Shown here piece after piece: positions 6,528 to 24,648 of a DNA stretch of 32,598 nt. A program made the position numbers and the translations under genes. How positions within the stretch are numbered: the stretch's first letter is position 1; the number at the start of each line of letters is the position of its first letter. The DNA is from Deltaproteobacteria bacterium (GTDB lineage: Bacteria; Desulfobacterota; Binatia; HRBIN30; JACQVA1), in assembly GCA_016210005.1 (NCBI GenBank), contig JACQVA010000010.1:1-32598 (forward strand), written 5' to 3'. The notes beneath the pieces were generated by a model. It searched no databases and was not told the DNA's origin. It saw only the letters and a program-made list of their open reading frames with translations.

Positions 6528-7862
6528 ATGCTAGCCGGTAGGTGCTGGTTTGTATTGCTGGCGCAGGATGCAGCGTTCATGACCGCACCGACGATCGAAC
6601 AAGTATACGCCGAAGAAACCGTGCGCCTGGCGGCCTCGCGCCTGCCGGCGCTGGCGGTGGTATTCGCAGCGTTGATGGCGGCCGCTTGGCTGCCGGAATC
6701 GCTCGTGCATCCCGAGCGCGTCACCCTCTACGCCGGGCTCTTCGGTGTGCAGCTGCTCGGCTGTGTGGGCGCGGTGATGTTGACGCGCAGCAACTGGGGG
6801 CGCGGCTACAGTCCGGCGATCGTTGCCTGTACGAGCATATGGCTGTGTAGCGTGATGGGGGTCTACCATGCGGCTCTGCACGGTGAGGCCGAGCTGTTGG
6901 CCTTGGCGCTGGCCGGCATGGTGACTGGCGTCGGCGTGCTGGTGCCGTTGGGCGTTCGCGGGCAGTTGCCGGTCGCCCTCGGCGCGATCGGCACATACGG
7001 TATCGCGGCGGTGGCGGGAGCTAGGAGCTCGACCTCGATCGCTTTGACCGCGTTGGGGGTAGCGGCCATCGGCGGGCTGTCGGTGGCCGGAGCCGCCGTG
7101 CTCGACCGCTACCGCTACGCCTCTTTTCGCCGAACTGAGCAGTTGCGCCGGGCCAACGCGGCGCTGGCGCAGGCCAACGAGGCGAAGAACTTGTTTCTGG
7201 CCAACGTCTCCCACGAGTTGCGCTCGCCGCTCAACGTTATCCTCGGCTACGCGCAGCTCATGCTCGACGACAGCTTCGGACCACTGCCGCCGGACTTGCG
7301 CCAGCCGCTCGAGCGCGTCGTTGCCAGCACCCAGAGCCTGGTCTACCTCATCAGCGACCTGCTGGATCTCTCGCGCATTGAAGCGGGACGGCTGGCGGTG
7401 AGTTTGAAGCCGGTTGAACTGGCGCCGCTGTTCGCCGAGCTGGAGAGCTTCATCCTGCCGGCGCTGGTGGCCAAGCCCGTCCGCTTCGTAGCCGAGGAGG
7501 CGGGCACGTTAGCGGTGACGGCCGACCCCGATCGCCTGCGCCAGGTATTGGTCAATCTGCTCACCAACGCGGCGAAGTTCACTCCGAGTGGCGAGATCCG
7601 CTTGCGCGCGGTTGCCGATGGCGATGGCGTCGGTATCGAAGTGACGGACACCGGTATCGGTATTGCCGCCGAGGACTTGCCGCACATCTTCGAGCCCTTC
7701 TATCGCGGGGCCGGCACCAAGCAGTACGGCGGCGTCGGTATCGGCCTGTCGATTTCAGCTCGCTTGGCCCGCGCCATGGGCGGCGAGCTGATCGCCCACA
7801 GCCGACTGAACGAGGGCTCGCGCTTCACCGTGCGGCTGCCGGCCGCGGCGGTGAACTGCTGA
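6528..7862 (+). CDS. Membrane-bound sensor histidine kinase (orphan)
   Basis: 444 aa from the ATG at 6528. A second ATG at 6579 (MTAPTIEQVYAEE) gives a more natural N-terminus; neither has a strong ribosome site, so the start is uncertain. About six hydrophobic segments between residues 38 and 195 form the membrane sensor, without a sizeable periplasmic domain. A short linker helix (RRANAALAQANEAKNLF) leads to the HisKA domain with His229 in NVSHELRSPLNVILG. The ATPase domain has an N box (NLLTNAAKFTPSG), G1 (VTDTGIGIA), F box (FEPFYRG) and G2 (GGVGIGLSIS). It autophosphorylates and should pass phosphate to an unlinked response regulator, since neither neighbour is one. It converges on the ferritin-like gene with only 9 nt between stops. 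The input signal cannot be told from sequence. Confidence 0.9.
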   Translation: MLAGRCWFVLLAQDAAFMTAPTIEQVYAEETVRLAASRLPALAVVFAALMAAAWLPESLVHPERVTLYAGLFGVQLLGCVGAVMLTRSNWGRGYSPAIVACTSIWLCSVMGVYHAALHGEAELLALALAGMVTGVGVLVPLGVRGQLPVALGAIGTYGIAAVAGARSSTSIALTALGVAAIGGLSVAGAAVLDRYRYASFRRTEQLRRANAALAQANEAKNLFLANVSHELRSPLNVILGYAQLMLDDSFGPLPPDLRQPLERVVASTQSLVYLISDLLDLSRIEAGRLAVSLKPVELAPLFAELESFILPALVAKPVRFVAEEAGTLAVTADPDRLRQVLVNLLTNAAKFTPSGEIRLRAVADGDGVGIEVTDTGIGIAAEDLPHIFEPFYRGAGTKQYGGVGIGLSISARLARAMGGELIAHSRLNEGSRFTVRLPAAAVNC

Positions 7863-9162: not shown

Positions 9163-12100
9163 GTGGGGGGGTATCAACAGGGCGATAGTGAACAGAGTCG
9201 GCGGATAGCGCTGGTGGGCCCCGCGCTGTTGCTGCCGCTCCTGTGGCTTTCGGGCTGGGCCGCCCCCGCCGGGGCAAACGGAACTCCTTCGCCGAGCCCG
9301 TTGGACACACCCACGGCGACACAGACGGAGACGCCGACCGCGACCGCCAGCCGCACGCCGACCTTGACAGCGACCAGTACCGCAACCGCCTCTCCAACCG
9401 TGCCGCAATCGTTGCCGGCGGGCTTGGTCGCTTGCTGGCCCTTGAACGAGACTGCGGGACGGCGAGCGGACGCCGTCGACGCTCCCGCCAACAATCTGGT
9501 CGATAACAACGCCGTGCCGGGAACCGCCGGTGTCAGCATCCACACCGGCGGCGTGGCGGCAGGCTTCAGCGCTGCTGACGGGCAGTTTCTCAGCCATGCG
9601 GACAGCCCGGCACTCAGTGTTGACAATCAGGACTTCACTCTTGCCGGCTGGGTCCGTATTGATGCTGACCATCCCGCCGGGCTCGTTGCCAAAGGGCTGA
9701 ACAACGGCACCCAAGAGTACGCGCTGGATTACCAAGCGGGCGGAACGCTACGCTTCCTCATCGGCACCGCCAGCGGCTCAGCAACCGACTCGGTGAGCGT
9801 GGGCGGTGTCAGCCTCGGCGACTTCCATTTCGTCGTCGCCTCGTTCGCGGCTGCCAGCCGCACCCTCGCCCTGCGGGTGGACGATGCGCCGGGCGGGGAG
9901 CAAGTGACCACGCTGGCGGTATACAACGGCAGCCAGCCGTTCGCGATCGGAGCCTATATCGGTAGCGACTTCCTCGATGGGCGAGTCGACGAGGTGGCAC
10001 TGTGGAAACGGCTGCTCAGCGCGAGTGAGCAGACCGCGTTGTTCAACGCCGGCAAAGGCTTGAGCTGCCCATTGGTTTTTCCCACCCCCACGGCGACGTT
10101 CACGCGCACGCCGACTATGACCGCGGTGGCTACGCCCACCGCCACGCCCACCGCCACGCCCAGCACGACGCCGGAGCCAACACCGACTGTGACTGCTGCC
10201 GACACCCCGATCTTCACCCCCACGTCCACGCCATCGGCGGCCAGCTACACTGCCACGGCCACCCCCACGCACACAGCGACAGCAACACCGACCTTGGCGG
10301 TTGCCGCCACGGTGCCGCCTTCGGTGATGGACGGCCTGGAGGCGTGCTGGCCCTTGAATGAAATCTCCGGCACGCGGACGGATTCAGTCGCCTCGCCGGC
10401 GAACGACTTGACCGACAACAACGCCGTCGCACAGGCCGCCGGCGCCAGCGGCAACACCGGGCCAGCCGCCGCCTTTGCTGCCGACGCCGGCCAATTCCTC
10501 AACCACGCCGACAGCCCTACGCTGAGCGTGGCGAACCACGATTTCACGATCGCCGGCTGGATTAGGATCGACGCCGATCAGGCGGCCGGCCTGATCACTA
10601 AAGGGACCAACTCGGACTTCCAGGAGTACGGCCTGCAGTATCAGGCCGGGGGAAGCCTGCGCTTTGTCATCGGCAGCGCCGACGGCTCGGCCGCCGATTT
10701 CGCCGCCGTGGCCAACGTCAACTTGGGGCAATTCCATTTCGTCGTCGCCTCGTTTGACGCCGCCAACAAACTCATTACCTTGCGCCTTGACGACCTCTTT
10801 ACACAAGTCAAACCCACCACCGTAACGGCATACAACGGCACCCAACTGTTCACCCTCGGGGCCTACGTCGGCAGCGACTTTCTCGACGGCCGCCTTGACG
10901 AGGTGGCGCTGTGGCAACGCCTGTTAACCGCGGACGAGCAAACCGCCCTCTACAACGGCGGGTTGGGTCTGCGCTGCCCGCTCTTTGTGCCGACCGTGAC
11001 ACCGACACCGACCATCACCGACACGCCGCCGCCGAGCGCAACTAGAACACCTACGATTACACGGACACCGACGCGCACTTTCAGGTCGCGTGCGACTCAG
11101 ACCAAGACACTCACCAACACACCCACCATCACGCCCACGCCCACGATTACACCCACCGAAACGCCGACGCCGACGGCGCCGACGCCGACCAATACCGCTA
11201 CCGCCACGCCCACGCCCACACCCACCACGACACCGACAGTGACGGCCACTATCCCCGCTTTCATCGAGTACGGGCTGGTATCCTGCTGGGGTCTCAACGA
11301 GGCCAGCGGCACACGGGTGGATTCGGTCGCCCCGTTCACCAATGATCTCAGCGACAACAACAACGTCGCCCAGGCGCCCGGGCTGAGCATGTGGACCGGG
11401 TTGGCGGCGGACTTCAGCGCGGCGAGTGGGCAGTTCTTGAGCCTCGCAGACAATCCCCCTCTCAGTATGGACAATCAGGACTTCACCCTCGCCGGTTGGG
11501 TGCGTATCGGCAGCGACCACGCCGCCGGGCTCATCACCAAGGGGGCCAACTCGAACTACCAGGAATACGCCCTGCATTATCAAGCCGGCGGCGTGCTGCA
11601 TTTTACCATCGGAACCCCCGACGGCTCGGCCGCCGACTCGGTGGCGATCGGCGGCGTCAGCCTCGCCAGCTATCACTTCGTCGTCGCTGCGTTCGACGCC
11701 ACCAACCACCTGCTCAAACTGCGCGTCGATGACTCGCGCTCGGCCATCAAGCCGACGGCGCTGATAAGCTTCGACGGCAGCGCGCCGCTGACGCTGGGCT
11801 CGTACCTGGGCAGCGACTTCTTCGATGGCCGAATCGACGAAGTGGCGGTATGGAAGCGCCTACTGACCGCGGCCGAGCAGACCGCCCTGTACAACGGCGG
11901 CCTGGGCTTGCCCTGCCCGTTGGAATTTCCGCCGCCGCCGCCGACCGCGCCGGGCACCCCCGCGGCGACCCCAACGCCAACGCCGACCCTGGCGGTGATC
12001 GCGACCGTGCCGCCCTCGGTGATGAACGGCGTCGAGGCCTGCTGGCCCCTGGATGAGATCACCGGCAGCCGACTGGATTCGGTCGCCTCGCCGGCGAACG

Positions 12101-15100
12101 ACTTGACCGACAACAACGGCGTAACCCAAGCCGCCGGCGCGAGCGGCAATACCGGGCCGGCCGCAGCTTTCGTCACCGCCGGCGGGCAATTCCTCAATCA
12201 TCCCGACAGCGTTACATTCAGTGCCGGCAATCACGATTTCACCATTGCCGGCTGGCTGCGGATCGATGCCGACCGGACGGCTGGTATCATCACCAAGGGC
12301 ACCAACTCCAACTACCAGGAATACGGTTTGCAGTATCAGGCGGGCGGGACCTTGCGCTTTGTTCTCGGCACCGCCGATGGCTCGGCGGCCGACTTCGCCA
12401 CGGTTGGCGGCGTGAGCGTGGGGCAGTTCCACTTCGTTGTTGCATCATTCGACGCCGCTAACCGGCTCATTGCTCTGAGCCTGGACAACCTGCCCGCGCA
12501 AGTTAAGCCCACCGCCTTGACGGTGTACGACGGCACACAGTTGTTCACGCTCGGGGCCTACGTCGGCAGTGATTTCTTCGAGGGCCGCCTCGATGAGGTG
12601 GCGCTGTGGAAGCGCTTGCTGAGCGCGGAAGAACAGACCGGCATCTATAATGGCGGACTCGGCTTGCGCTGCCCGCTCTCGGTGCCCACCGCGACACCCA
12701 CTCCCACCGCCACCGACACGGCGCCGCCAACGCCGACCAGTACGCCGACACGCACTCCGACGCGGACGAAGACCGTAAGAGTGGTTGGGACACTGACCAA
12801 GACCCCCACGCGCACGCCCACCGTCACGCGCACCCACACGGTTACCCCAACCATAACCGCCACGCCGACCGCCCCCACGCCTACCAACACCATAACCCCG
12901 ACGGCCACACCTACGGTCACCAACACGCCGACGATCACCCCGACGGTGCCGGCACTCATCGCTCAAGGGCTGGTCGCTTGCTGGGGGCTGGAGGAAGCCG
13001 AAGGTGCGCGGGCGGATTCGATCGCACCCTTTGTCAATGATCTCACCGACAACAACGGCGTCACACAAGCCACGGGGCTCAGCAGCTGGACCGGATTCGG
13101 GGCCGAGTTCAGTTCCGTCGACAGCCAGTTCCTCAGCCTGGCTGACAGCCCGCTCCTGAGCATGACGGATCAGGACTTTACCCTCGCCGGTTGGGTGCGT
13201 ATCGCCGGCGACCATGCCGCCGGGCTCATCACCAAGGGATCCAACTCGAACTTCCACGAGTATGCCCTGTACTACCAGCCGGGGCGGACGCTGCGCTTCT
13301 CGATCGGGAGTTCCGATGGGTCGATCGCCGACTCGGTGGCGGTAAGCGGCGTGAGCCTTGGCGTTTATCATTTCGTTGTCGCCGCCTTCGATGCCACCAA
13401 CCGTCTGCTCGAACTGCGGGTCGACGACATCCGCTCGGCGATCAAGCCGACGGCGCTGACGACGTTCGACGGCAGCGCACCGCTGACAATGGGCTCTTAC
13501 CTGAGCAGCGACTTCTTCGATGGCCAGATCGACGAAGTGGGGGTGTGGAAACGCCTGCTGAGCGCCGCCGAGCAGACCGCCCTCTACAATGGCGGCGTGG
13601 GCTTGGCCTGCCCACTGGACTTTCCCGCGCAAACGCCGACCGAGACGGGCACCCCGACGCTCACCCCCTCAAATACCCCGCCGCCGACGGCCACCGCCAC
13701 ACCTACCGCCACACCGACCGTGACACCGACACCGACCGATACCGCCACGGCCACGGAAACACCCACGGTTACGTCGACACCGACCGTAACGGAGACCGCC
13801 ACCCCGACCAGCACTCCGACCGCTATGCCATCCGACACCCCGACCAATACCCCGACAGCGACCCCCACCCGCACGCCGACCCCGACCCCGACGCTGCACC
13901 CGGCCTTGTCACACGAGCTGGTCGCGTGTTGGGCGCTCAACGAAGCGAGCGGGACACGAGCCGACTCGGTCGCCCCGCCGGAAAACGATTTGACCGCAGA
14001 GAATGCCGTGGGTCAGGCCCCGGGCGTGAGCGCACAGACCGGACCGGCCGCGGAATTCATCGGCGCCAGCGCGCAATTCCTCAGTCACCCGGATAGTGAG
14101 ACATTGAGCATGGCGGAGCAGGACTTCACCGTCGCCGCCTGGGTGCGCATCGATGCGGATCAGTCGGCGGGCCTGGTCACCAAGGGCGCCGATGCCAACA
14201 TGCGCGAGTTCGCCCTCGACTATCTTGCCGGCGGAACACTGCGTTTCACCATCGGCACGGCCGACGACAGCGCGCTCGCCGCCGCCGCGGTTGACGGCGT
14301 CAGCCTCGGTACTTTCCACTTGGTGATCGCCTCATTCGACGCCACCAACCGTATGCTGTCACTGCGAGTGGATGACGTGTGGTCGAATCTCAAGCTCACG
14401 ACGCTGGCGGCCTATGATGGTCCCGCGCCGTTTATCGTCGGCGCCTATGACGGAAGCGGTTTTCTCACCGGCAGGATCGACGAGATCGGTCTTTGGAAGC
14501 GCTTGCTGACAGCCAGTGAACAGACGGCGTTGTTCCGCTCGGGTAGCGGTATCCCGTGTCCCTTCACCACCCCAACCCCGACCGTTACCCCGACCGACAC
14601 CCCGACGCTGACGCCGACTGACACGCCGACCGCGACGCCGACCGAGACCCCGACCGCGACCCCGACCGCGACGCCGACGCTGACGCCAACGGTGACGGAT
14701 ACACCGACGGAAACCCCAACCGAGACCCCAACGATGACACCAACGGTGACAGATACGCCGACGGAGACCCCCACCGAGACGCCGACCGACACCCCGACCA
14801 GTACCCCGACGGAGACTGCCACCGAAACTCCGACCGCAACCCCCAGCGATACGGCCACCGAAACCCCGACGGCGACGCCGACCGACACCCCGACTAACAC
14901 TCCCACCGACACCGTCACCGCCACGCCTACCGCCACGCCCACCGACACCGCCACCGCAACCCCCAGCGCCACCGCCACCGAAACTCCAACCGCCACGCCG
15001 AGCCCTACCGCTACGGCAACCAGCACCATCACACCGACCATTACCGTGACCGAGACGCCGACCGTGACACCGACCGCGACCGATACCGCCACGCCGACGG

Positions 15101-15612
15101 AAACACCCACCGCTACGCCGACACCAACCGAGACAGAGACGGCCACGGCGACCAGCACCAGCACTCCAACCTCGAGCCCGACAATGACGGCGACGCCAAC
15201 ACCGTCGCCAACGCCTAGCGCCACCCCAACCGTGACCCCGACCGATACACCGCCTGAGAACACACCGGCTGGAACCTCGGTGCCGACCGGGTCGCCCCAG
15301 CCATCCGCGTCCCCAACGCCGACTCCAACACCCACGTTGCCAGCGCCGGTGTGCACGGGTGACTGCGACGGCGACGGGACGGTGACCGTTGACGAGCTTG
15401 TGCTGGGTGTGAATCAGGCGCTGGGCATCGCCCCGATCGATGCTTGTCCCGAATTCGACCTCAACCTTGACGGTTCGGTCAGCGTGGACGAGCTGGTCGT
15501 GGCCGTAAACGCCGCGCTCCAGGGCTGCCCTGCCGATCACGCCGCCCGCGCCGCAAAGCACGCCCCGGGCCTGGCCTCCGGCAGCTCTCGCGGCTCGCGC
15601 CAGCCCGCGTGA
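9163..15612 (+). CDS. Giant secreted protein: six LamG domains, Thr-Pro linkers, C-terminal EF-hand doublet
   Basis: 2149 aa. GTG start at 9163 with AAGGG 7 nt upstream; residues 12-39 form a signal peptide ending APAGA. Six LamG/concanavalin-like domains of about 215 residues begin at 9421, 10333, 11272, 12028, 12967 and 13915. Each opens with a variant of [13 protein letters not shown] and contains [40 protein letters not shown] and EQTALYNGG, ending at a conserved cysteine in the CPL motif. They are joined by Thr-Pro-rich linkers; the last (about 14566-15350) is some 260 residues. Residues 2064-2123 are a Cys-flanked pair of perfect EF-hand loops ([24 protein letters not shown]), dockerin-like in layout, then a short Arg-rich tail. 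Likely surface-displayed and carbohydrate- or protein-binding; no catalytic domain is seen. Domains 2-3 and 4-5 are a duplicated pair. It overlaps the next possible start (GTGA at 15609). Confidence 0.9.
10333..13620 (+). repeat. Duplicated two-LamG unit, exact 1695-nt period
   Basis: LamG domains 2 and 4 start 1695 nt apart (10333, 12028), and so do domains 3 and 5 (11272, 12967). Domains 2 and 4 share words such as TVPPSVM and [15 protein letters not shown] that domains 3 and 5 lack; domains 3 and 5 share CWGL, FLSLAD, AIKPTAL and GSAPLT. The linkers inside the two units have equal length and a matching basic interruption. Confidence 0.75.
14566..15350 (+). repeat. Long low-complexity Thr-Pro-coding tract
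   Basis: About 785 nt built from degenerate 6-nt and 12-nt units of the ACSCCGACC type encoding TPT, TET, TDT and TAT. It is an extended linker between the last LamG domain and the EF-hand doublet. Shorter tracts of the same kind lie at about 9280-9405, 10075-10310, 10985-11260, 11930-12010, 12690-12955 and 13625-13905. The antisense strand is also open because of the repeat, which is not evidence of a gene. Confidence 0.85.
15352..15531 (+). other. Dockerin-like EF-hand doublet (domain within the LamG protein)
   Basis: Residues 2064-2123. Two 12-residue loops fit the EF-hand pattern D-x-[DN]-x-D-G-x-V-x-x-x-E exactly ([12 protein letters not shown] and [12 protein letters not shown]), each followed by a helix of the LVxxVNxAL type. 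Cysteines before loop 1 (CTGDC), between the units (ACPEF) and at the end (GCP) probably form disulfides. A related module sits at 27463-27642. Confidence 0.7.
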
Positions 15613-16757: not shown

Positions 16758-18125
16758 CTACGGCAACTCAACCGTCGCCGAACGGCCGCCTTCGAGGTAG
16801 GGCTCGTTCGACGAGACCGCCGCCGCGCCGTAACCGGTGAAGCGGTCGATCACCAGGCCGATGACCGGCACGCTCACGCCGCGCACGATCAAGTGCGCGG
16901 TGGTGGTGCCGAGGGTGGTGCCGCGTAGCGGGCTGATGGTGCTGAAGCGCCGGCGCAACGTGCAGGTCAACGAGACCGAAGCCGAGAGCACGTCCTCGAA
17001 CTCGTTGATGATGCTCAGGGTAATCGGGGTACTGGTTCCACCGTAGATGACGTTTTCAGTGCACGGCACCAGGAGCAGTTCGCTGTCCGAGCCGGTTTGA
17101 TTGGCCAGTACGCTGAAGTGGAGCCGATCCGGGCATTGCTCGTACTCGTCGCCGTCGAGGTTGAAGACGCCGCCGTAGTAACCGGGGGTCAGCCGGCGAA
17201 AACCGATGGCGGTGTAGCCGACGGTCTCCGCTGGGGATGACTTCGACACCAAGGCGCGGCCCTGCAAGGCATTGTGCGATGACAGCTCTGCGGTCCGGGC
17301 CTCAACTGCGCACTTGAGCTCGCCGCTGCCGGTGAACGGCGGCACCGCGGTGTAGCTGCTGAGGGAGCGATACCCCGAGCTGGCCATCCACGACAGCGGC
17401 TGGCTTGCCGTCAGCGTGACGGTGAAATCCGTGGAGTTACAGCTCACGCTGTCGATGTAGGCGCAATGCACCGAAACGCTCATGCCGGTTAGGTTGACGA
17501 TCTCAACCCGAGTATCGCGCGGGCTGCCGCCGGCATCGGCTTCAATCAGCGGGTAAACCAGCAGCGCCGACGGCAGCTTCTGCGCCGGTCCGACACCGGT
17601 GGCAGCCGCCAGGCCGGTCGGGTTTCCCGGATCACGCGTCGGCGTCGCGAGCAGCGCCGGATCGAGCGTTGCCGTCGGGGTCGCCGTCGGGCGCGGTGTC
17701 CGCGTCAACGTCGGCGTGCGGGTGTCGGTGCGCGTGGCGGTAACCGTGGGCGTTCGGCTCGGGGTGCGGGTGCGACTAGGGGTGCGCGTGAGCGTGAACG
17801 TCGGAGTGGACGTACGGGTGCGCGTGATCGTCGGCGTTGACGTCCAGCGGCGGGTGTTGGTTACAGTCGGGGTGACTGATGGCCGCCGCGTGGAGGTAGC
17901 AGTCGGCGTTGGACGCGGCGTGCGAGTGCGGGTCACCGTCGGCGTCGCTGTCGGCGTGGAGGTCGGGCGGCGCGTCGCCGTCCAGGTGGGCGTAGAGGTA
18001 GGCCGCCGGGTATACGTCGGGGTGGCGAGGGTGGCTTCGGCGCCGCTCTGGGAACCAAACAAAGTCCCGACCTGCTGAAGGATCAGGAGCAACGCCGCCG
18101 CGAAGGCTTGGCCGAAGGAGTCCAT
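16758..18125 (-). CDS. Secreted protein: Thr-Pro/Arg linker plus unknown C-terminal beta domain (paralog of upstream gene)
   Basis: 455 aa. The N-terminus has a hydrophobic stretch (AFAAALLLILQQVGTLFG) that can serve as a signal peptide or anchor. Residues about 34-160 are a low-complexity linker rich in TPT with frequent arginines (TRRPTSTPTW, TRTRTPRPTPT), more basic than the LamG linkers. Residues about 180-455 form a domain clearly related to the neighbouring protein encoded at 18131-19051: both share AQKLPSAL, RDTR(V/I)E, SRVPPF/TAVPPF, EYEQCP/DYEQCP, LHF, LVPCT, NEFE, GR(S/T)ATV. Conserved cysteines are in matching places. I do not recognise the domain. The ATG lies 5 nt after the upstream stop, with AGAGGG very close to it, so translation is probably coupled. 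Confidence 0.8.
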   Translation of the reverse strand: MDSFGQAFAAALLLILQQVGTLFGSQSGAEATLATPTYTRRPTSTPTWTATRRPTSTPTATPTVTRTRTPRPTPTATSTRRPSVTPTVTNTRRWTSTPTITRTRTSTPTFTLTRTPSRTRTPSRTPTVTATRTDTRTPTLTRTPRPTATPTATLDPALLATPTRDPGNPTGLAAATGVGPAQKLPSALLVYPLIEADAGGSPRDTRVEIVNLTGMSVSVHCAYIDSVSCNSTDFTVTLTASQPLSWMASSGYRSLSSYTAVPPFTGSGELKCAVEARTAELSSHNALQGRALVSKSSPAETVGYTAIGFRRLTPGYYGGVFNLDGDEYEQCPDRLHFSVLANQTGSDSELLLVPCTENVIYGGTSTPITLSIINEFEDVLSASVSLTCTLRRRFSTISPLRGTTLGTTTAHLIVRGVSVPVIGLVIDRFTGYGAAAVSSNEPYLEGGRSATVELP

Positions 18126-18130
18126 ACCCT

Positions 18131-19051
18131 CTAAGGGAAGATCACTGTCGCCGTGCGTCCGCCCTGGAACGACGGGTCATTGGCTGAGGTCATGGGCGTG
18201 GCCGGGTTACCGAAAGTGAAACGATCGATCGCCAGCCCGATCAGCGGGAACGAGGTGCCGCGCACCGTCACGTGCGCCGTGTCCGTGCCGAGCGTGGCGC
18301 GACCGAGGGTATTACTGATTTGCAGCAGCGTGCGCCGATCGAAGCACTTGAACGTGATGGCGGCAGAGAAGGACTGCTCGAACTCGTTTGTAATGGTGTA
18401 CTGAACATTGGGCTGGGTCGGGATCTGATTGAGCAAGTCCTGCGTACACGGCACCAGAACCATCTCGCTCTCGGACACGCCGGCCGTCGCGCCCAGCAGC
18501 GTGAAATGGAGCTTGTCGGGGCACTGCTCGTAGTCGGCGCCGTCGAGGCTGAAGACGCTAGTGAAATCGCCGTCGCTCAGTCGGCGAAAGGCCGTGGCGC
18601 TGTAGCCAACCGTCTGGCCGTCGCTGCCAAAAATGATCGCGCGTGCTTGCAGCACGTTGTGAAATTCCACCTCCGGCCGCTGCGGCAGTACCGCACATTT
18701 CATTTCGCCTTCGCCGAAGAATGGCGGCACTCGGCTATACGTCGCGGTATCGCTGAAGCCCGTGCTCGCCAGCCACGAGGAGGGCTGGTACGGCGAAAGG
18801 CTGATGAAGAAGCCGATCTCGTTGCAGATGTCGCCCCCGGACACGTAGAAGCACTGCAAGTCGACGTACTGATTGGCCAGGTTCAAGACCTCGATGCGGG
18901 TATCGCGGCTGTTGGGTATGCTTTCAATCAAGGGGAGGACCACTAGGGCCGAGGGTAGCTTCTGCGCGGGCGGGCCGGCAAGGGCTGGCTGAGCCCACGG
19001 GCTCAACAAGGCCACGGCCAGACCAAGCGTAAAGCAACCAAACCGCCTCAT
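18131..19051 (-). CDS. Secreted protein of unknown function (paralog of downstream gene)
   Basis: 306 aa from the ATG at 19049-19051, chosen because it has GGCAGGTAGG just upstream and starts a textbook signal peptide (MRRFGCFTLGLAVALLSP, cleavage near ALAG). The frame stays open upstream to 19390, but that extension is Arg/Pro-rich without coding character and would cover the predicted promoter. The mature protein begins directly with the domain shared with the neighbour (AQKLPSALVVLPLIES) and has no Thr-Pro linker. Paired cysteines (LQCFYVSGGDIC, EQCP, VPCT, FKCFD) suggest a disulfide-bonded exported fold. A promoter with good spacing lies upstream. It and the paralog at 16758-18125 form a tandem duplication read as one operon. 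Confidence 0.82.
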   Translation of the reverse strand: MRRFGCFTLGLAVALLSPWAQPALAGPPAQKLPSALVVLPLIESIPNSRDTRIEVLNLANQYVDLQCFYVSGGDICNEIGFFISLSPYQPSSWLASTGFSDTATYSRVPPFFGEGEMKCAVLPQRPEVEFHNVLQARAIIFGSDGQTVGYSATAFRRLSDGDFTSVFSLDGADYEQCPDKLHFTLLGATAGVSESEMVLVPCTQDLLNQIPTQPNVQYTITNEFEQSFSAAITFKCFDRRTLLQISNTLGRATLGTDTAHVTVRGTSFPLIGLAIDRFTFGNPATPMTSANDPSFQGGRTATVIFP

Positions 19052-19087
19052 ACCTACCTGCCCCTCGTCCGGACCGAGAGATATCGC

Positions 19088-19116
19088 ATCGTAAACGGCC
19101 CCGGGGCGCAAATCAA
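19088..19116 (-). promoter_or_regulatory. Sigma70-type promoter for the paralog operon
   Basis: On the minus strand, TTGATT (19116-19111) and TACGAT (19093-19088) are separated by exactly 17 nt, with an A/T-rich stretch (AATTTTTTGGCTTTT) just upstream that could act as an UP element. The predicted start point is about 30 nt before the ATG at 19051, leaving room for the ribosome site. Confidence 0.5.
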
Positions 19117-19352
19117 CCGAAAAGCCAAAAAATTCCTCCCGAGCCGCCGGGCCAGCATGGGCGCATGGACGACGGGCGGCATTCTCTTGCTTGGCCGCCA
19201 CCGCGGAGTTTGCGGGCGTGCCCGCTTGGCTCAGCTGTTTCTGTTGTCGCGGCCGATGTCGCGCCGGTGTCGAGCGGTCCGGGGAATGACAGCCACCGGG
19301 ATGCTCGCCGCCGCGCTGACCGCGGCAGCACCGAAGTCCCGGCGCCCCTCGC

Positions 19353-20582
19353 TTACTTGAGAAAGTAGACGGCAGCGGCCGCAACCACACCGGCAGCCGC
19401 CGCCAGACCGGCGAGTAGGTACATCTGCCGCAACAAGTCGCGGGTGGACTCGATCAACGGCGTCACCACCCGCCGAGTGATGTCACCGGCGGCTTGGGTG
19501 GCGGTTTGAGTCGCCTGCCGGGCGACGGACTGGGCGGCGTGGGTGGCCGCCTCGCTGGCGGTCTTGGCCGCGGCGGCCTGCACCAGCTGCTCGAGTTCTT
19601 CTCGGTCAATCGCGTTCGACTGACCGGACGCCGCCGCCGACGCCTGGAGTTCGGCGAGTTGCTCCTGCAACTGGCTCACGCGCGTGCTCAGGTCGTCGAT
19701 TTGCGCCGTGTACAACTGCTCCGCCGCCTGCTGCGCCGCCGGTACCGCGGCTTCGCTGGCAGCGGCTCGCACGGCTTGTTGGGCCGCGCTCTGGGCCGCT
19801 TCGGTGGCCGTGCTGGTGGCAACCTGGCGCGCGCGCTGCTCCAGTTCTTCGATCACCAACGGGTCGAGCGTCGCCGGCGCTTCGACCCGCGCGCGCAACT
19901 CCGCCAGCTGTTCGAAGACGTCTGTGAGCGAGTCCTGGACCTGTTTGCGAATCTGGGCGCTGAACTCGCCGAAGCGGGCGGCGTACAGCTCGCTGGCGAC
20001 ATCGCGCGCCGTCACCTGCCCGCGCGTGAGCAGGTCCTGCTTGAGCTGCGGTAGCTGCTCGTCGAGCAACCGGCTCACCAATGAACGCGCCACGTAGGTG
20101 GCCACCGATTCGGCGGCAGTGCGAGCCAAGCTTTCGATCGCCGCGCTCGGGATCGTATGGGCAGCATCCGGCGGCGGGGCCGCCGGCTTGATGGCAGCCA
20201 CCGCACCGTCAGGAATCAGCTTCAAGCTCTGCAGCACACGGGTCAAGGAGTCGGGCTTGGCCGGCTTGGCCAGGATGCAGGCCGCTCCGTAGGACTGCGC
20301 CTGCTTGACGAACTGCTCGCCGTCCTTCGAGCTGTGGATGATCACCGGGATCGAGGCGGTGGCCGGATTGTCGGCAATGGCCTTGGTGGCATCCAGGCCA
20401 TTCATGCCGGGCAGGATGTGATCCATCAGGATCAAGTCCGGCTTCTTGTTCTGCAGGTATCGCAACGCCTCTTCGGCTGATTCCGCCGTGTCCACGGCCA
20501 AGCGGTTTTGCTCCAACATCCGTCGCAGCATGATCAGCACGGACTTCGAGTCATCCACTACCAGCGCACGCTTGCTTGACAT
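19353..20582 (-). CDS. Response-regulator receiver domain with Ala-rich helical region and C-terminal membrane anchor
   Basis: 409 aa. ATG at 20582 preceded by GAGAGG. Residues 4-122 are a CheY-like receiver: Asp10/Asp11 acidic pair, phospho-acceptor Asp54 in LILMDHILPGMNG, the Ser of IIHSSKDG in the switch position, and the Lys of CILAKPAKP. Residues about 140-380 are a very Ala/Gln/Glu-rich helical region with heptad character (ARVEAPATLDPLVIEELEQR, TRVSQLQEQLAELQASAAAS). Residues about 387-408 form one hydrophobic helix (MYLLAGLAAAAGVVAAAAVY) followed by FLK at the very end. So the protein is probably tail-anchored in the inner membrane with its receiver in the cytoplasm. No DNA-binding or enzymatic output domain is seen. 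No kinase is adjacent on its strand; the nearest is the divergent PspA-operon kinase. A scaffold or localisation role is a guess. Confidence 0.85.
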   Translation of the reverse strand: MSSKRALVVDDSKSVLIMLRRMLEQNRLAVDTAESAEEALRYLQNKKPDLILMDHILPGMNGLDATKAIADNPATASIPVIIHSSKDGEQFVKQAQSYGAACILAKPAKPDSLTRVLQSLKLIPDGAVAAIKPAAPPPDAAHTIPSAAIESLARTAAESVATYVARSLVSRLLDEQLPQLKQDLLTRGQVTARDVASELYAARFGEFSAQIRKQVQDSLTDVFEQLAELRARVEAPATLDPLVIEELEQRARQVATSTATEAAQSAAQQAVRAAASEAAVPAAQQAAEQLYTAQIDDLSTRVSQLQEQLAELQASAAASGQSNAIDREELEQLVQAAAAKTASEAATHAAQSVARQATQTATQAAGDITRRVVTPLIESTRDLLRQMYLLAGLAAAAGVVAAAAVYFLK

Positions 20583-21273: not shown

Positions 21274-22443
21274 ATGGCGTTTCTCGGCTTGATCATCGCC
21301 GTGCTGCTGTTCTTGCATTTCAAGCGCCGGCACCGGCGATTTCGCCTGCGCTATCGCCACGATGATCTGCATCGTGCCATAGCCGGCCACGATTGGCAGG
21401 CGGAGCGCGAGCAGTGGCGCGAGCGCGTGCGCGAAGAGCGGCGGCGCTGGCGCGCAGCCGCACGCCAGTGGAAACGCGGCAACTTCACCCCGCCCAAGCC
21501 TGATCCGGAACAGGAGGCGCTGCGCCGCGCCCGGCGGCGGGCCGCGGTCGAAGCCAGCTTCTACGTCCACCTGATGTGGTACTTGGCCGTGATGGCCTTC
21601 CTGGCCTTCATCAACCTCATGACCACGGCGTACCCGTGGTTCCTGTGGCCGGCACTGGGCTGGGGCATCGGCCTGTTCTCGCACTACATGGGGGTTTTCG
21701 GCTCACGCTTCGTCAGGGAGCGCTTCTTTGATCCGGCGGTCGAGCGCGAGGTGCGGCGCGAGAAACAAGCGATGACCACCGACAAGCAGGCATCGATCGA
21801 GGAGCTGTCGGCCACCATCGCCCACGAGATCCGCAACCCGATCGCGGCGGCCAAGAGCCTGGTACAACAAATGGGCGAGGACCCGCACTCGGTGGAAAAC
21901 GTCGAGTACGCCAAGGTGGCGATTGAAGAGCTCGATCGCGTCGAGCGCCGGGTCTCGCACTTGCTCAAGTACGCCAAGGAAGAAGAGTACCGCTTCGCCC
22001 ACACCAACCTCGCCGGCGTGGTCGACGCCGCCCTCACCCAGCTGCGCAGCAAGCTCGACAGCGCGCAAGTGCAGGTGGCGCGTAATTACATCGCCGGTCC
22101 GACGGTCTGGGCCGACGCCGAAAAGCTCCAGCAGGTCTTCGGCAATATCATCGACAACGCCATCGATGCGCTGGCGCCCGTGGCCGAAGGACGCCGCCTC
22201 GACCTCTTCATCGAGAACGGCACGCCCAAGACCGCCACCGTCCGCATCCGCGACAACGGTTGCGGTATCCCCGAGGCGAAACTGGCGAAGATCTTCAACC
22301 CGTTCTTCACCACCAAGGAGAAAGGCACCGGGCTGGGTATGGCCATCGCCAAGAAGATCGTCGATGCCCATCAGGGCCACATCGGCGCCGACAGCGTGGA
22401 AGGACGCGGCAGCGAGTTCAGAGTCACTCTGCCGACGCCTTAG
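21274..22443 (+). CDS. 2TM-domain sensor histidine kinase, PspA operon
   Basis: 389 aa. ATG 21274 with AGGAG 8 nt upstream. Residues 1-16 are a membrane helix; residues 17-95 are extremely Arg-rich and helical; residues about 95-147 match the 2TM domain (YVHLMWYLAVMAFLAFINL and FLWPALGWGIGLFSHY). No periplasmic sensor domain is visible, so sensing is probably in or at the membrane. HisKA: His184 in TIAHEIRNPIAAAKSL. ATPase domain: N box NIIDNAIDAL, G1 RDNGCGIPE, F box IFNPFFTTKEKGTGLGMAIA (F and G2). The NtrB-like HEIRNP box fits an NtrC-type partner, and the next gene is one. It should phosphorylate Asp53 of that activator. Confidence 0.92.
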   Translation: MAFLGLIIAVLLFLHFKRRHRRFRLRYRHDDLHRAIAGHDWQAEREQWRERVREERRRWRAAARQWKRGNFTPPKPDPEQEALRRARRRAAVEASFYVHLMWYLAVMAFLAFINLMTTAYPWFLWPALGWGIGLFSHYMGVFGSRFVRERFFDPAVEREVRREKQAMTTDKQASIEELSATIAHEIRNPIAAAKSLVQQMGEDPHSVENVEYAKVAIEELDRVERRVSHLLKYAKEEEYRFAHTNLAGVVDAALTQLRSKLDSAQVQVARNYIAGPTVWADAEKLQQVFGNIIDNAIDALAPVAEGRRLDLFIENGTPKTATVRIRDNGCGIPEAKLAKIFNPFFTTKEKGTGLGMAIAKKIVDAHQGHIGADSVEGRGSEFRVTLPTP

Positions 22444-22475
22444 CCGAGCCAGCGCAGCGATTACGGATCACCAAC

Positions 22476-23873
<1,398 letters not shown>

Positions 23874-23919
23874 CGATTGCGCGGCGGCCATCGGTGTTCT
23901 TACATAACAGGAGCGTACT

Positions 23920-24648
23920 ATGAGATTCCTGACGCGGTTGACCAACCTGATCAGCGGGGTGCTGGGCGAATGGCTCGGTGGACGCGAGCGGCGCAATCCT
24001 GCCGCGGTCTACGAAGCCGCCATCGGCGAGCGCTCGGCGCAGTACGCCAAGCTGCGCGAGGCCGCCGCCAGCATCTTGTACCTGCGCAACAAGCTCGGCC
24101 GCCAGCTCGAAGAAGCCAGGCGCGAGCTCGCCCGCAGCGAGGGCCAGATCGAGCTGGCCCTCGATCGCGACGACGACGAGGCCGCGCTGTTTCTCATCGA
24201 GCGCAAGGAGCGCTTGACGGCTGACCTGCAGCGGATCACCAAAGAGTTGGCCGAGCTGACCACCGAAGCCGAGAGCGCCAAGCGCAATCTCGTGGCCTTC
24301 CATAGCGACATCCAGAGCCTGCGCGAAGAGAAGACCCGCATGCTGGCGCGACTCGCCAACGCCCAGGCCCGGCTGCGTTTGCAGCGCGCCCTCAACGGCG
24401 TGGCCGGCCTGACCCCCGACGCCGACATCCAGGCACTGGAAGCCGTGCGCGAGTACATCGAGCGCACCATCGGCGCGATCACCGGCGCTGACGCTAGCGG
24501 CGACGGCGGGCTCGATGCCCGCCTCGATCAGATCCGCAGCGAGCAAGCGCTGCACGCGGCGCGGGCGCAGCTCGAGGAGCGCAAACGCAGCCGCCGCCGG
24601 TTGCTGCCGCTGATCCTGCCCAAAGGCGCCAGCGTGGTCGCCGGTTGA
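23920..24648 (+). CDS. pspA: PspA/IM30 family envelope-stress protein
   Basis: 242 aa. ATG 23920 with AGGAG 7 nt upstream. Begins with an amphipathic helix (RFLTRLTNLISGVLGEWLG) as in PspA/IM30/Vipp1, followed by coiled-coil helices through about residue 190 (REAAASILYLRNKLGRQLEE, IERKERLTADLQRITKELAE). PspA proteins are membrane-remodelling ESCRT-III relatives that polymerise at the inner membrane under envelope stress. The C-terminal 50 residues are basic and end LILPKGASVVAG. It lies 46 nt after the NtrC-type gene and belongs to the same operon. In E. coli PspA is controlled by PspF, an activator without a receiver domain; here the activator has a receiver and a dedicated kinase. Confidence 0.88.
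   Translation: MRFLTRLTNLISGVLGEWLGGRERRNPAAVYEAAIGERSAQYAKLREAAASILYLRNKLGRQLEEARRELARSEGQIELALDRDDDEAALFLIERKERLTADLQRITKELAELTTEAESAKRNLVAFHSDIQSLREEKTRMLARLANAQARLRLQRALNGVAGLTPDADIQALEAVREYIERTIGAITGADASGDGGLDARLDQIRSEQALHAARAQLEERKRSRRRLLPLILPKGASVVAG

Follow-up and report, generated by a model that had tools for sequence, protein, structure and literature searches.

A receiver protein with a helical repeat array and a predicted C-terminal membrane anchor in a Binatia bacterium

Response regulators are classed by the output domain they carry, and almost all of them are soluble. The locus studied here lies on a 32,598-nt stretch (contig JACQVA010000010.1, 66% GC; in the following, the window) of a genome assembly from a Deltaproteobacteria bacterium. 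It raises the question of what a receiver might do that carries no output domain and appears to be held at the membrane by its C terminus. An intact ORF with an ATG start, closely preceded by GAGAGG, encodes a 409-aa protein in which a complete receiver (REC) domain is followed by ~270 residues without a Pfam domain and by one C-terminal hydrophobic helix. Its parts, with the evidence used to delimit them, are as follows:

19353..20582, minus strand: whole gene of the predicted tail-anchored receiver protein, 409 aa (ORF; orthologue L007:1501-3003)
20232..20564, minus strand: receiver domain, aa 7-117, with D10, D11, D54, S84 and K106 (PF00072; PleD alignment)
20148..20231, minus strand: Pro/Ala-rich linker, aa 118-145, with no predicted secondary structure from about residue 120 on (low-pLDDT model; sequence)
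19875..20147, minus strand: helical unit 1, aa 146-236, with a predicted helix at 146-233 (model; unit alignment)
19617..19874, minus strand: helical unit 2, aa 237-322, with a predicted helix at 241-318, resembling the stretch ~83 aa further on (self-match; model; unit alignment)
19419..19616, minus strand: helical unit 3, aa 323-388, continuous with the membrane helix (self-match; model; unit alignment)
19359..19418, minus strand: C-terminal hydrophobic helix, aa 389-408, a predicted tail anchor followed by one Lys (hydropathy)

PF00072 covers aa 7-117 over nearly its full profile (E 4.8e-25), and a score of 88.3 bits against a gathering score of 30.2 identifies the domain as a REC. The closest solved REC by sequence is receiver D1 of Caulobacter PleD (E 2.1e-16); the second PleD receiver also aligns. 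In the ungapped alignment with D1, D10/D11, D54, S84 and K106 all fall on the columns that we take to be catalytic, so the intact Asp54 claimed in the original prediction was called correctly, and Ile103 occupies the usual aromatic switch position. The orthologue described below retains D10, D11, D54 and K106, with Thr replacing S84. PleD carries on after D1 with another receiver and a diguanylate cyclase, neither of which is present in the window protein. That there is no output domain, as had also been proposed, agrees with our searches: besides REC, no Pfam family exceeded its cut-off over the whole protein, and the post-REC part searched alone against Pfam, at E values up to 10, gave no convincing match. 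A post-REC profile found none among solved structures (best E 0.59), and NCBIfam returned generic REC families only, all below their cut-offs.

A whole-protein search gave a receiver match in 58 of 58 genomes, the window's own included. Besides the latter, only one genome (G001), of the same family and another genus, showed a match that continued far past the receiver (E 1.5e-61, aa 1-299). This orthologue (L007:1501-3003) is 500 aa long, arranges its parts in the same order and, like the window protein, ends its hydrophobic tail in Leu-Lys. The first 120 residues, which hold the REC, are 57% identical between the two and the helical part after them 38%; the latter thus diverges faster, as expected of a spacer. 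Since REC, helical part and tail anchor are all kept in a second genus, the combination for which a search had been proposed is conserved in this comparison of two sequences. Searches with a post-REC alignment at E 1e-5 matched, among 148 genomes of the class, only the 2 that had supplied the alignment. At E 0.001, among 395 genomes taken from the phylum, they matched one, which was that of the window itself, with G001 not among the matches. The detectable family is, therefore, narrow; an unrelated protein with the same build would escape such a search. The loci L020/L037, L028, L038 and L039 from other genomes, whose match in the first search extended past the REC, had other architectures without a tail helix and were set aside. 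Public genome contigs contained five related loci, none with the tail, and 573 plasmid records matched the receiver protein, of which 0 covered 80% of the query. Open-licence papers, in which absence is weak evidence, yielded no bacterial response regulator of such build, whether described as membrane-anchored, tail-anchored or integral to the membrane.

The sole hydrophobic segment of the protein is aa 389-408 (mean Kyte-Doolittle 2.15), that is, a single helix at the extreme C terminus and no other, as in a tail-anchored protein with predicted insertion. On the biological insertion scale, applied with what we take to be its values and without position terms, this tail sums to -0.30, compared to +9.94 for the next-best segment outside it. 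The window tail is Ala-rich and on this scale only marginal, while that of the orthologue is stronger (-2.22). For a wider comparison, we considered 79 REC ORFs in 61 loci, comprising the window locus and 60 stretches that cover part of the genome's 119 receiver matches and in some cases end at contig ends. Of the 79, only the window protein had a post-REC segment with a negative value; the second lowest was +3.75. This uniqueness, together with the same order of parts and the stronger tail in the orthologue, argues for a tail beyond chance, and the single C-terminal membrane helix of the original prediction stands as a predicted feature.

The Ala-rich helical stretch expected after the receiver is likewise present, with 23% Ala at aa 126-385 and predicted helices throughout the units listed above. 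It is made up of helical units of ~80-90 residues arranged in tandem, of which the window protein has three and the orthologue four. The window protein matches itself best at an offset of 83 aa, with a score of 71 (shuffle maximum 55), and the orthologue at 88 aa, with a score of 89 (shuffle maximum 51), each with 100 shuffles; aligned units share 17-43% identity. Structure models, both built from two-sequence alignments, place three long helices at 146-233, 241-318 and 327-408 in the window protein and four units at 150-224, 234-313, 322-406 and 414-499 (one break) in the orthologue. As the mean pLDDT is 55 and 53, respectively, only helix limits were taken from them. GC-rich codons favor Ala, yet alone would not give repeats kept between genera.

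Over the whole helical part, hydrophobicity peaks at a period of 3.92 residues in the window protein and 4.00 in the orthologue, exceeding all 300 shuffles, and both have little spectral power at 3.5. The first unit alone shows weaker periodicity (shuffle p 0.010 and 0.023). Reading by eye shows short heptad-like runs where unit 2 ends, near aa 295-312; an extended heptad coiled coil of the FrzS/AglZ kind was not found in the helical part, which, judged from its sequence, is for the most part no classical heptad coiled coil. The terms ‘rod’ and ‘coiled coil’, which had been used for this region, are not borne out, given the low-confidence models and the dominant period, and the repeat array with its ~3.9-4.0 periodicity does not support a continuous coiled-coil rod.

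Three genes divergent from the receiver gene begin 0.7 kb away and are listed here as neighbors separate from it:

21274..22443, plus strand: 2TM histidine kinase of the PspA block (profile match; conserved block)
22476..23873, plus strand: NtrC-type regulator (profile match; conserved block; start set manually to the ATG that precedes its REC)
23920..24648, plus strand: PspA/IM30 (profile match; conserved block)

A tie to this PspA operon had been implied. In G001, the kinase (88% identical), NtrC-type regulator (80%) and PspA (75%) occur together on contig C23 without the tail-anchored gene, whose sole match at that block is the receiver of NtrC itself. The orthologue sits apart, on contig C18; a further 18 proteins of the window were searched against the ~43 kb around it, and not one had a match. 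Linkage to the PspA block is, thus, not conserved in this one relative, and the tie was given up on this single comparison, which speaks against a fixed link and leaves the receiver an orphan. Nor are the two kinases of the window favored as partners: one belongs to the conserved PspA block, and the other (6528-7862) has its best G001 match, 62% identical, on contig C14 rather than on the contig of the orthologue. The window's only two receiver matches start at 20232 and 22488. Sigma-54-type sites in the window were no more frequent than chance (13 found versus 16.9 expected), and the sigma-70-type promoter sought near the receiver gene was not found. In G001, a gene of the PilT family is located ~4.6 kb from the orthologue; a link to type IV pili was set aside because, in the window's genome, matches to this family fall on other contigs.

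Several observations concern the surroundings in their own right. The kinase-NtrC-PspA block is strongly conserved between genera (L106:9644-12696, minus strand, versus 21274-24648 in the window) and possibly represents a two-component-controlled Psp variant. The histidine kinase at 6528-7862, on the plus strand, has no adjacent response regulator gene. In G000, seven PilT-family matches (TIGR01420) over the curated cut-off, on C9, C1, C132, C53 and C114, make up a rich set of retraction-type ATPases. Beside the receiver gene, 16758-18125 and 18131-19390, both on the minus strand, encode two similar secreted-looking proteins that share a QKLPSAL stretch and have no Pfam or NCBIfam match; one of them is preceded by a long Thr/Pro-rich repeat, and the listed GTG start of 18131-19390, which overlaps the receiver gene, is probably too early. 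Further away, a 2,149-aa ORF (9163-15612, plus strand) contains six LamG-like (Laminin_G_3) stretches and is followed, at 15609, by a TSP3-like protein.

The closest precedents, the Myxococcus xanthus proteins FrzS and AglZ, begin like the window protein with a receiver fold that leads into a long helical domain, and the cited passages describe their output as localization and docking (PMC1974792, PMC12632262), the same output that we propose here. Localization of FrzS is reported there to require its receiver, its 258-residue coiled coil and its C-terminal tail alike (PMC1974792), and the receiver docks or recruits SgmX (PMC12632262). The receivers of FrzS and AglZ lack the phosphorylation residues and are, according to the same passages, pseudo-receivers (PMC1974792), whereas the window receiver has all five residues. 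Unlike these proteins, the window protein combines an intact Asp54 with a predicted membrane helix and a helix period of ~4 residues; the passages on FrzS name a coiled coil and a C-terminal tail and do not mention a membrane helix. Because of the missing phosphorylation residues in FrzS and AglZ and the window helices that are not mainly heptad, we place the window protein outside their group, and because of those residues and the unmentioned anchor the precedent is only partial. Membrane-anchored archaeal regulators of Methanoregula, MetOD3-REC-MetOD2, resemble the window protein in joining REC to a membrane-anchored, lineage-restricted extra domain; as described in the cited part, a 180-aa membrane portion precedes their REC and MetOD2 follows it (PMC5847659). 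The window protein differs in having REC first and the anchor at the extreme C terminus. A further likeness is to RomR, the M. xanthus polarity response regulator, a soluble protein in which a receiver with a non-enzymatic C-terminal extension serves a polarity role. To our knowledge, RomR has neither a helical repeat array nor an anchor.

As far as the sequence goes, receiver, helical array and predicted anchor form a real, conserved and unusual architecture, which confirms the first observation made on this protein. The safe statement is an anatomical one, and the mechanism is what we infer from it. Sequence and analogy suggest a phosphorylation-controlled scaffold or localization factor as the likeliest reading. 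More specifically, with a probability of roughly 0.45, the protein may be an orphan phosphorylatable docking module that a modular helical spacer keeps attached to the inner membrane and that works in a FrzS/AglZ-like manner. This docking module is favored by the complete REC, the conserved order of parts, the three versus four units, the lack of an output domain, the unique tail and the FrzS precedent; as judged from one relative, G001, the gene has no conserved neighbors. The REC would be cytoplasmic and receive its phosphate from a kinase encoded elsewhere, and phosphorylation would alter which partner the REC face binds. The helical units, perhaps through self-association, would set the partner's place and distance from the membrane; we keep the ‘perhaps’ because a period of 3.9-4.0 is not suggestive of a heptad coiled coil. 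Localization or docking, rather than the activity of an output domain, would then be the output itself, in the way that FrzS and AglZ use a receiver plus a helical part.

Other explanations account for some of the same features. A membrane-held phosphorelay intermediate or phosphate sink, in which the helices merely keep REC near membrane kinases, would suit a complete REC without an output domain, and 88 matches to a histidine kinase query in G001, some being fragments of one gene, offer many possible donors; we nonetheless consider it unlikely, as a 270-residue repeat array kept between genera would be needless for a sink. The long helices with their strong ~4-residue hydrophobic stripe, and the PspA block as a divergent neighbor, could also point to the Ala-rich helices as an effector acting on a membrane or polymer in a PspA- or phasin-like fashion, with REC phosphorylation switching binding. 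Against this reading, which seems improbable to us, no similarity was found to PspA, phasin, other Pfam families or, with a best E of 0.59, solved structures, and linkage to the PspA block is not conserved in G001.

The remaining alternative concerns the anchor, since the tail might not span the membrane and instead be a hydrophobic oligomerization helix packed in a soluble protein. The Ala-rich composition and marginal value of the window tail (-0.30) would allow this, but the orthologue's tail is clearly hydrophobic (-2.22), and the window tail stands far from both the rest of its protein (next +9.94) and the 78 other REC ORFs (next +3.75), making a soluble tail very doubtful.

Relative to the original prediction, two points on the helical part are new, the array of ~80-90-residue units and a hydrophobic period of ~3.9-4.0 in place of a mainly heptad pattern. 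A bolder and rather speculative extension, to which we give little credence at present, would be that response regulators have an output of a new kind, in the form of a phosphorylation-switched dock on a membrane tether of adjustable length. Such a tether would change its reach in evolution as entire ~85-residue units, built on a four-residue stripe and not on heptads, are gained or lost. FrzS and AglZ show the positional principle with receivers that lack phosphorylation residues, and the window protein would provide a testable, phosphorylatable version. If the favored reading is true, a complete, phosphorylatable receiver on a membrane-fixed repeat array, lacking any enzymatic or DNA-binding domain, would exert its output by position alone.
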